DNA from: Fusobacteriaceae bacterium
GTDB taxonomy: Bacteria; Fusobacteriota; Fusobacteriia; Fusobacteriales; Fusobacteriaceae
DNA length: 59,675 nucleotides
Reading direction: 5' to 3'
Assembly (NCBI GenBank): GCA_031272775.1
Contig: JAISTB010000024.1
Span: 1-59,675 of the forward strand
Shown one piece after another: positions 218-3,650 of the stretch. The position numbers and the translations under genes were made by a program. Below the pieces are notes generated by a model, which did no database searches, was not told the DNA's origin, and was given only the letters and a program-made list of their open reading frames with translations. Numbering within the stretch: position 1 is the stretch's first letter; each line of letters begins with the position of its first letter.

Positions 218-781
218 TTATTTCTTGATTCGCTCCACATACTCGTTCGTCCGGGTATCGATCTTGATCCATTCCCCCTGCTCCACGAAAATGGGCACCT
301 GCACCTCATATCCCGTGTTGATCTTGGCGGGTTTCAGGACCTTGCCCGACGTGTCGCCCCGCAGACCCGGTTCCGTGTAAACGATTTCCTTTTCGATGAA
401 AGTCGGCAGTTCCACTGCCACGGGCGTCGATTCGTAGTAAACGACGTCGAGGGCGATGCCGTCCTCAATGTAGTTGACGGCGTCGCCGAGGTCTTCGGAC
501 CTCAGTTCCATGGTTTCCCAGGTCTCGGGATTCGAAAAGACGTAGGAATCCCCGTCCTGATAGGAGAAGACGGCCTTGACCTTGTCGAGCTTGATGTCGT
601 CCATCTTTTCGTCAGCCTTGTATACGGCGTCTGAAATATTGCCGTTCAACAGATTTTTCATCTTGAATTTTACGACGGCGGCGTTTCTGCCGGATTTGTT
701 ATACTCGGTCTTCAGTATGACAAAGGGATCATTCCCGATTTTGATTGTGCTTCCTGCCCGTAATTCCTGAGCAATTTTCAT
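218..781 (-). CDS. efp: Elongation factor P with Arg32
   Basis: EF-P binds the ribosome between the P and E sites and relieves stalling at polyproline stretches. The 187-residue length and the three-domain sequence (KOW-like N-terminus, then two OB-fold regions) are typical. The residue at the tip of domain I is Arg32, in the motif SGRNAA. That is the class modified by rhamnosylation through EarP in other bacteria, not the Lys class modified by EpmA. The preceding gene encodes an EarP domain and overlaps this start by ATGA, so translation is probably coupled. The Shine-Dalgarno AGGAGG lies 6 nt before the ATG. Identity is certain; modification by the neighbour is inferred from known EarP/EF-P pairs. 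Confidence 0.97.
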   Translation of the reverse strand: MKIAQELRAGSTIKIGNDPFVILKTEYNKSGRNAAVVKFKMKNLLNGNISDAVYKADEKMDDIKLDKVKAVFSYQDGDSYVFSNPETWETMELRSEDLGDAVNYIEDGIALDVVYYESTPVAVELPTFIEKEIVYTEPGLRGDTSGKVLKPAKINTGYEVQVPIFVEQGEWIKIDTRTNEYVERIKK

Positions 782-2967
782 AGTTTACCTCCTGCATATT
801 CTTGTATTATGGTTTTTATTTTTGTCAAAAGATCGCACGAACGGGCCAATTCCGCGGAAAATGCCCCGCAGGCTTCCCCGATGGTCCGCAAATTCTTGAA
901 AAACGCGAGATAGCGTTCCGCCGGAGCGTCCCGCAAAGCGCCGTCTCCGCTGTTGTACGCCCGGAAAAGCTCCGAGGTTTCCCGGGCCGCCTGAGATTCC
1001 GCGCCGCCGGGGAAAAATTTCCCGTAAGTTCGGAGAAAACCCTCCAGCTTGTCCAGTTGAACGTTATCTCTCTGGGGATAAAGCTCCCACAGAAAGGGCT
1101 TGCCCGCCGTGGCCGCCTGGGCCGCGGAATCCTCACCGCGCACGAAATTCACGTCCGCCGCGTTGAGCAATTCCTCGAACTGATCCTGCGTGAAGAATTC
1201 GGCGTACTTCATTTCTATTTTACCACAGATATGGATATTTCCAAAGTCTTTTTTCTGAAATTCCCCGATGAATTTACCGAAAGCCGCCCGGCTCTTGCCG
1301 CCGCAGACAAGAAGCGCCGCGGGTTTGTCCAATTTTCGCAGGGCCTCAAGGAGCCCGGAAAAATCTCTTTCATAGGAAAAGACCACGATCTTCAAGCGCT
1401 TTTGGGGCCCGGAAAATTCGCCGAAATATTTGTTGACAAATTTTTCGGGGGCCAGTCGCACCCGCTCCCGGAATTGGGGACGTTGCAAAAGTCCTCCGCT
1501 TTCGGGCGTAAAGCCCGGAAAATAAAAGAATTTTCTCAGCTTTCCCGGGACCATCGAGGGCTTCAGGTGAAAGTCTTCGGCCCATTTCTCCCCGGTCAGA
1601 TATTGAAGGTCAAGCAGAAGCATCCCTTTTTCCCGGCCTTCGGCGAGATAGGCCTCCGGCGGATCGCAGCCGAAGGCGCCGATTGCGGTCCTGGCGATCC
1701 CGCGCCCGGCCTCCCGGAATTCACGGTCCCGGAAAAAAGCAATCCCTCCGAGTTCCTGTGCTTCAACATCCCGGATTCCCGGGTGTATGGCCGCAAGCGC
1801 GTTCAAATCGTTGACGACGACGCGGATCCGGATATCCGGCCCGCCGCGCCTGCGGAATTCCTTGGCCAGGCGCAGGACGACGCCGATATCGCCGTAATTG
1901 TCGATGACCTCGCAAAATATATCGAGATCGGACGCGTAACCGCCGTGCTTTTGGCCTTTACACGATTCCCGCTCCCGGCTCTCCCGCTCGCAGGCTTTAG
2001 CCATTTTGCGGGCCTTCCAGGACTTGCGGGCCCGGTCCATCCAGCCGGGATTTCCCAGCATGGCCCTGCCTACGGCCGCGAAATCGGCGAGTCCCTGTTC
2101 GATAAGCCAGCTCGCCTGCCGTTCCTCCCGGATCCTGTGCACGACAACGACCGGCAGCGACACCCTCCTTTTGATTTCCGTCCCCATCCAGACCACCCAG
2201 TCGAGGGGGAAATCCGCCGGTACGCCGTCGATCTTCCGCTCCCGGCGGAAGGCGGGGTCGGGTACGCCGGTGGACACATGGAGGAGATCGACGCCCAGGC
2301 CCTCAAGATATCGGGCAAGGGCGACGCCCGACGGAAGGTCAGGCTCGTTTCCGCCCATGCGGTATCCTAAAATAAACTTTTCGTCAAAAAACGCTTTCGT
2401 CTCCGCGATCAGGTCCGCCGCGAAGCGCATTCGCCCCGAGAGATCCCCGCCGTAGCGATCGACGCGCTTGTTCCAGAGGGGGGAGGCCAGCTGCGAGAGC
2501 AGATAGGCGTGGGCCCCGTGGAGCTCCACACCGTCAAAACCGGCCGCTTTGGCGCGCCCTACGGCCGCCTTGAAGTCTTCCCGTATTCTCTCCAGCAGGT
2601 CCCCGGGGACCGCGGCGATTTCCTCCCGGAAGCCCCTGTGATGGAGCTGGATCAGGATTTTCGTATCATATCGGTGAACAGCCCCGGTGATTTTCCGCAA
2701 TCCCGGAATAAAGGCGTTGTCCCAGATCCCGATCTGATTCTCCCGGAGCTTGCCGTCGGCGCTTACCGCCGTCGCTTCCACAATAATGAGCCCCACGCCC
2801 GCCCGGGCCGCCGAGCGGTACCAGTCCACGAGCCGATCGTTGACGAAGCCGTCCCGCCCCACGACGGAAAAGCGCACCATGGGCGGCAGCACGATCCGGT
2901 TGGGGATCGTGAGACCCTTCAAGCGGAAGGGCGTAAAAATATGGACTTTCCTGTCCTCCGCGCTCAA
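778..2967 (-). CDS. earP: Old-yellow-enzyme / EarP fusion (EF-P arginine rhamnosyltransferase)
   Basis: One 729-residue frame carries two enzymes. Residues about 8-310 are an NADH:flavin oxidoreductase barrel of the old yellow enzyme family, with the characteristic ELHGAHAYLLSQ (148-159) and DRYGGDLSGR (170-179) segments. A charged linker of about 35 residues follows. Residues 348-729 match EarP: CEVIDNYGDIG (352-362) holds both catalytic aspartates (356, 360), and VRGEDS (609-614) holds the catalytic glutamate (612). EarP transfers rhamnose from dTDP-rhamnose to Arg32 of EF-P, which is encoded next. The start is TTG, overlapping the stop of the upstream gene (TTGA), with GAGGAG in front. The flavoenzyme substrate is unknown. 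Free-standing EarP is about 370-380 residues, so the EarP half is full length. Confidence 0.88.
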   Translation of the reverse strand: MSAEDRKVHIFTPFRLKGLTIPNRIVLPPMVRFSVVGRDGFVNDRLVDWYRSAARAGVGLIIVEATAVSADGKLRENQIGIWDNAFIPGLRKITGAVHRYDTKILIQLHHRGFREEIAAVPGDLLERIREDFKAAVGRAKAAGFDGVELHGAHAYLLSQLASPLWNKRVDRYGGDLSGRMRFAADLIAETKAFFDEKFILGYRMGGNEPDLPSGVALARYLEGLGVDLLHVSTGVPDPAFRRERKIDGVPADFPLDWVVWMGTEIKRRVSLPVVVVHRIREERQASWLIEQGLADFAAVGRAMLGNPGWMDRARKSWKARKMAKACERESRERESCKGQKHGGYASDLDIFCEVIDNYGDIGVVLRLAKEFRRRGGPDIRIRVVVNDLNALAAIHPGIRDVEAQELGGIAFFRDREFREAGRGIARTAIGAFGCDPPEAYLAEGREKGMLLLDLQYLTGEKWAEDFHLKPSMVPGKLRKFFYFPGFTPESGGLLQRPQFRERVRLAPEKFVNKYFGEFSGPQKRLKIVVFSYERDFSGLLEALRKLDKPAALLVCGGKSRAAFGKFIGEFQKKDFGNIHICGKIEMKYAEFFTQDQFEELLNAADVNFVRGEDSAAQAATAGKPFLWELYPQRDNVQLDKLEGFLRTYGKFFPGGAESQAARETSELFRAYNSGDGALRDAPAERYLAFFKNLRTIGEACGAFSAELARSCDLLTKIKTIIQEYAGGKL

Positions 2968-3650
2968 TCGCCGATCTCCTCGCTGATCTTCCGCTGCTTG
3001 TACTGGTTCATGGCCCCGGCCTTGATCTTGGCCTGCAGATCGTCGCAGTCCTGAATATACTGCTGCCGTTTGCCATAGATCTCAAAATATTTCCAGCCGT
3101 CGAGGCGGCGGTAGAGGTTTTTCGCCGTGGAAACTTCGTTGAAGGCGTGCATATAGTCTCCCTGCAGGGCGTACACGATCCCGAGGCCGTGGTGTCCGGG
3201 CGGAAAATCGGGATTGGTCTGCACAAGGGCCTCGAAGTAAATTCTTGCCGTTTTCAGATCTTTTTTGTCAAGGTAAATGTTGCCCAATTTGTTCCTCGCG
3301 TAATAACCCTTGCGGTTGGCGAGCACCGAGAGCTTGAAATACTTGACGGCGTTGGTCTCGTCCCGCTTCAGCGAGCGGTAGGCTTCCCCCAGCCTGTCGT
3401 AGGCGATATAATTGTCGGGGTTTTCGGCGATTTCGGCCTTGAGCCCCGCGATATACTGGTCCGGCGCGCCCTTTTTGCCCTCGAGCCGGATGAAATTGGC
3501 GGCCTCCTCCCGGGTCAGGCCGATATTGATCAATTCGTTGAATTCCGTTTCCATGGCTCGCTTGGCCAGAACGCCTCCGGCGGCCCCGGCGGTCAGAGAA
3601 AATAACAACAGCAGAATTCCCGTAATCACGCCTTTTTTATGGATTCGCAC
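2964..3650 (-). CDS. Exported or membrane-anchored TPR protein
   Basis: A 228-residue protein with an N-terminal hydrophobic stretch (about residues 8-28) that is a signal anchor or signal peptide. Tetratricopeptide-type helices follow: AYDRLGEAYRSL, ARNKLGNIYLDKKDLKTA and GHHGLGIVYALQGDYMHA are spaced like TPR units. It probably scaffolds protein contacts outside the inner membrane. The start is GTG, 6 nt after the stop of the upstream membrane gene, and the stop overlaps the OYE-EarP start. The specific partner is unknown. Its place in the EF-P operon may be only co-transcription. Confidence 0.75.
   Translation of the reverse strand: MRIHKKGVITGILLLLFSLTAGAAGGVLAKRAMETEFNELINIGLTREEAANFIRLEGKKGAPDQYIAGLKAEIAENPDNYIAYDRLGEAYRSLKRDETNAVKYFKLSVLANRKGYYARNKLGNIYLDKKDLKTARIYFEALVQTNPDFPPGHHGLGIVYALQGDYMHAFNEVSTAKNLYRRLDGWKYFEIYGKRQQYIQDCDDLQAKIKAGAMNQYKQRKISEEIGD

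Follow-up and report, generated by a model that had tools for sequence, protein, structure and literature searches.

We found that the window, i.e. the whole stretch of 59,675 nucleotides analyzed here (contig JAISTB010000024.1, assembly GCA_031272775.1, from a Fusobacteriaceae bacterium), carries a gene in which an old yellow enzyme (OYE) barrel and the EF-P rhamnosyltransferase EarP are joined in one protein, and that this fusion is real and conserved within the genus. With a probability of roughly 0.6, it would be a bifunctional fusion that ensures co-production of an Arg32 rhamnosyltransferase and an independently acting FMN reductase, and not a pair of domains sharing one reaction. As far as the literature shows, the fusion places a known enzyme in a new domain arrangement: in its searchable part, nothing relevant was found on EarP with a flavin oxidoreductase or on natural EarP fusions, which is weak evidence of absence.

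The fused gene occupies positions 778-2967 of the minus strand (stop codon at 778-780) as a single open frame of 729 codons, whose sole possible start is a TTG with AGGAG on its 5' side. Upstream, the gene for a TPR protein (2964-3650, minus strand) overlaps the start of the fusion by TTGA, and a homologue of this gene is also located upstream of the fusion in one congener (G002). Downstream, the stop of the fusion and the start of efp overlap by ATGA (read at 781-778, minus strand). The efp product (218-781, minus strand; NF001810 and TIGR00038 above cut-off) has the loop NKSGRN with Arg at residue 32, which was invariant in 19 EarP-linked EF-Ps. These readings agreed with the first-pass annotation of this DNA, which had proposed OYE and EarP in one frame, coupled by ATGA to a directly downstream gene for an Arg32 EF-P.

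The same unbroken two-domain frame was present in all three genomes of the genus, each representing one species, and full-length identities to the window's fused protein were 50% and 58% in the two congeners (G001 and G002). Thus, the fusion is neither a chance event nor a slip of assembly. Two checks had been named in advance, a stop or frameshift between the domains and the occurrence of the same architecture elsewhere; the frame was uninterrupted in the window and both congeners, and so the domains are not split in all close relatives. An assembly or frameshift artefact was given a negligible probability and dropped, because three divergent genomes share the architecture; moreover, the original EarP start has been lost in the window and G001. 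In G002, the first ATG, GTG or TTG codon after residue 296, which is inside the barrel, is a GTG within the catalytic motif of EarP; therefore, functional EarP in that species must be made as a fusion. A candidate for an independent EarP start inside the fusion, ATG322 of the window with GGAAGG upstream, was rejected since it was not conserved and had no counterpart in G002.

The EarP half (residues 348-719; 811-1926, minus strand) matched PF10093 with an E-value of 1.6e-82 (278 bits versus a Pfam gathering threshold of 25), and its best solved structure was TDP-rhamnose-bound Pseudomonas aeruginosa EarP (6j7k; Z 44.5 over 373 residues). It scored below the NCBIfam equivalog cut-off of TIGR03837 (269.2 versus 347.05 bits), which we treated as a calibration limit and not as a defining trait, because the Ilyobacter relative carries the EarP annotation in the public record. 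Alignment to P. putida EarP (5nv8) matched D356 and D360 (1888-1902, minus strand) with D13 and D17, and E612 (1132-1134, minus strand) with E273, and the numbers given earlier for these three catalytic residues were exact. Each of D13, D17 and E273 is essential in P. putida EarP (PMC5615199). Of ten additional residues probed by mutation in that study, nine were identical (F191, Y193, F252, Q255, F258, R271, D274, S275 and Y291), and the tenth, R278 of P. putida, is replaced by Q617. The fused protein therefore resembles the EarPs of P. putida, P. aeruginosa and N. meningitidis in fold, in the three essential residues and in nearly all tested pocket residues, as well as in its site directly before an Arg32 efp, but differs from them in its N-terminal OYE barrel, the Arg-to-Gln replacement and the score below the equivalog cut-off. 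From these features, we infer that the EarP half is probably enzymatically active and would rhamnosylate Arg32.

The OYE half (residues 10-329; 1981-2940, minus strand) matched PF00724 in two stretches (E-value 8e-50; 170.5 bits versus a Pfam gathering threshold of 27), and its best solved structure was YqjM (1z41; Z 40.3, rmsd 2.0 over 301 residues). The alignment to YqjM revealed the active-site motif H150-G-A-H153 (2509-2520, minus strand; H164/H167 in YqjM), followed by Y155 (Y169 in YqjM), i.e. both the substrate-binding His pair and the proton-donor Tyr. These three residues, together with Q107 and R301, were invariant in 17 aligned homologues and were not among the six otherwise invariant positions at which the window OYE deviates, and the active-site residues were intact in all three fused proteins. 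In the alignment, R203 is a possible equivalent of YqjM R215. Like YqjM/NamA-type OYEs, the fused protein has the barrel fold, the HxxH motif with the active-site Tyr and the GR motif at the FMN phosphate end. However, besides having EarP attached, it lacks a YqjM loop of about 20 residues and contains V31 and F33 in place of Cys26 and Tyr28, the Val and Phe being common to all 17 aligned homologues. On account of these two replacements, it was classed as an OYE and not as a member of the YqjM class, and its score was far below the NamA equivalog cut-off (189 versus 431 bits). The earlier description of the barrel as intact thus held for the fold, which was predicted with high confidence, but not for the missing loop and the Cys26/Tyr28 positions. 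The OYE half is apparently divergent but maintained, and these conserved residues suggest that it is probably active and binds FMN.

An AlphaFold2 model of the whole fusion had a mean pLDDT of 91.7, with complete folding predicted for each half. The sole stretch below 50 was residues 337-344, within a charged linker (residues 330-347; 1927-1980, minus strand) whose length and sequence vary among the three species of the genus. Confident packing of the OYE half against the EarP half was absent (pTM 0.62), so the model does not fix the relative placement of the two halves. This bears on the idea that the OYE half might be a module for redox or flavin sensing, or for scaffolding, which tunes or oligomerizes EarP, such that EF-P activation would follow the redox state. 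YqjM-type OYEs are oligomers. The covalent connection through a short linker would suit such a module, and the replacement of Tyr28 and Cys26 of YqjM leaves room for a changed role. However, the OYE catalytic residues are conserved, also in family members without EarP, and together with the lack of confident domain packing this makes a sensing or scaffolding role appear improbable.

Besides the three genomes with the fusion, 93 genomes of the order were searched, and both domains in one unbroken frame were found in none of these 93. Among 61 Fusobacteriaceae genomes, EarP was detected in 50 and the OYE clade in 57. Among the 50 EarP-containing genomes, three had the fusion and 35, spanning five genera (g2, g4, g8, g11 and g13), had a separate OYE gene immediately before earP, and in the remainder OYE was within 3 kb upstream (4/50), elsewhere or on another contig (7/50), or not found (1/50). 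At most of the adjacent loci that were read, the two genes abutted or overlapped by up to about 20 bases (TAATG, TGATG or longer), with a short gap at one locus (L027). At two of the adjacent loci (L008 and L025), one stop codon is all that separates OYE and earP within a shared frame, so that loss of this stop would yield a fusion. Because the separate genes abut or overlap in so many EarP-containing genomes, the fusion appears to have arisen by joining a pre-existing operon pair. In the OYE tree, the Fusobacteriaceae proteins formed one monophyletic clade (100/99) that included the copies from genomes without EarP, and the fused clade within it had modest support (87/36).

Beyond these adjacent pairs, OYE was about 2.9 kb before earP-efp in Fusobacterium vincentii and away from earP in several genera, including Ilyobacter. 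The OYE of Ilyobacter polytropus (WP_013388899.1, NADH:flavin oxidoreductase) is 57% identical and belongs to the same clade, and its EarP is of the same family, but unlike in the fusion, the two are encoded separately on the megaplasmid pILYOP01, about 154 kb from each other. Where OYE is apart from earP, it adjoins unrelated genes, such as an ABC-F ATPase gene in g5 and g14. Such a gene was observed in divergent orientation beside OYE in g2, g5, g11 and g14, regardless of whether earP was present (L133, L134, L135, L148, L149 and L152). Several other loci are also worth recording: in G069 (C2:809625-810760), the EarP match was split in two, the second part containing a TGA, and lay beside an intact OYE and an Arg32 EF-P; G005 had an additional, more distant member of the OYE clade beside an outer-membrane efflux gene (L147:4857-5819, plus strand), and such second copies also occurred in G064 and G067.

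This distribution is relevant to the view that OYE is a passenger, its gene order and fusion having come about by drift with no benefit and its OYE half possibly being partly impaired. Such a view could draw on the restriction of the fusion to one genus, the linkers that are unrelated between species and the six deviating positions of the window OYE. On the other hand, adjacency has persisted over five genera, and the fusion in three species with identities of 50-58%, with OYE catalytic positions unchanged, and we therefore regard a passenger origin as doubtful.

Outside the family, EarP was found near none of the 80 best non-fusobacterial relatives of OYE in the surrounding DNA examined. In a sample of 398 pseudomonadotal genomes, 59 of which contained EarP, no OYE was present near EarP at the 12 loci with long open frames that were read, and the remaining EarP frames, being at most 447 amino acids long, have no room for an OYE domain; the OYE-EarP fusion was thus not found in the 59 sampled pseudomonadotal EarPs. 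A different arrangement was seen in one pseudomonadotal genome (G443; L172:2880-4622, minus strand), where a single open frame of 581 codons encodes EarP followed by EF-P, both families being above cut-off. It may represent an enzyme-substrate fusion, and the EF-P has retained its own ATG.

The first-pass annotation had offered two interpretations of the fusion, a redox step in EF-P modification and a tethering of unrelated enzymes, and the second agrees better with the observations. First, the same OYE clade was present in eight Fusobacteriaceae genomes without EarP (seven in g12 and one in g5; the g5 profile match has a TAG close to its end, which leaves its final residues uncertain). EF-P was read in six of them (five in g12 and one in g5), and all six had a QSTSGKRQR loop with Lys at the tip. 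Retention of OYE without EarP makes a shared chemical step unlikely. Second, G004 and families f2 and f3 had EarP but not OYE. Thus, together with the lack of EarP beside the outside relatives, it appears that the function of OYE does not need EarP. In Fusobacteriales, the type of EF-P tracked EarP: EarP-less genomes had Lys-type loops (STSGKRQR or STSGKKAR) and EarP-containing genomes had the SGR type, as noted for L156, L158, L159, L160, L162 and L163, and for the f4 loci L157, L161 and L164.

Finally, rmlC and rmlD were found together on contig C23 of the window's genome, above their equivalog cut-offs, and the sugar donor is thus probably plain dTDP-rhamnose. The possibility that OYE stands in for a missing enzyme of the rhamnose pathway was ruled out for rmlC and rmlD, as both are present in this genome. 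We also noted that rmlC was not found in the EarP-containing G001, G004 and G008, an absence that is unsure as these assemblies are 90-93% complete.

If the OYE half carried out a redox step, with the sugar nucleotide, an intermediate or the sugar once attached as its target, the modification on Arg32 would differ from plain rhamnose. Such a step would be in line with the conservation of the OYE-earP-efp operon in five genera, the fusion itself and the retained active site in the three fused proteins. However, the OYE in genomes without EarP and with Lys-loop EF-Ps, its distance from earP in Ilyobacter and others, the EarPs without OYE in G004, f2, f3 and at the 12 pseudomonadotal loci, and the normal rmlC and rmlD all argue against such a step, and we consider it unlikely. 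A more specific proposal, that the Fusobacteriaceae OYE, fused or operon-encoded, alters rhamnose or its donor to give a new reduced sugar on Arg32, with the fusion channeling this step, appears slightly less likely still. An added or lineage-specific redox role in the fused genus is possible.

Co-production of two independent enzymes by a bifunctional fusion is thus the reading that we prefer. Two neighbors of an old OYE-earP-efp operon would have been joined once the intervening stop was lost. The C-terminal half would act as a normal EarP, binding EF-P and transferring L-rhamnose from dTDP-rhamnose to Arg32, and the N-terminal half would be a reductase of the YqjM-like branch that uses FMN and NAD(P)H and has its own, separate substrate. 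The gain from the fusion may be a fixed co-production and co-localization of proteins that were already tightly coupled. We infer that the two half-reactions are probably independent of each other; however, the OYE-earP linkage has been kept over five genera, which is more than mere independence needs. A functional link is what tight linkage and fusion usually indicate.

In the searchable papers, EarP appears only as a free-standing enzyme. The presence of an OYE-earP-efp operon in Fusobacteriaceae, fused in one genus, suggests that the activation of EF-P in these bacteria is tied to a flavin enzyme, at least in expression.
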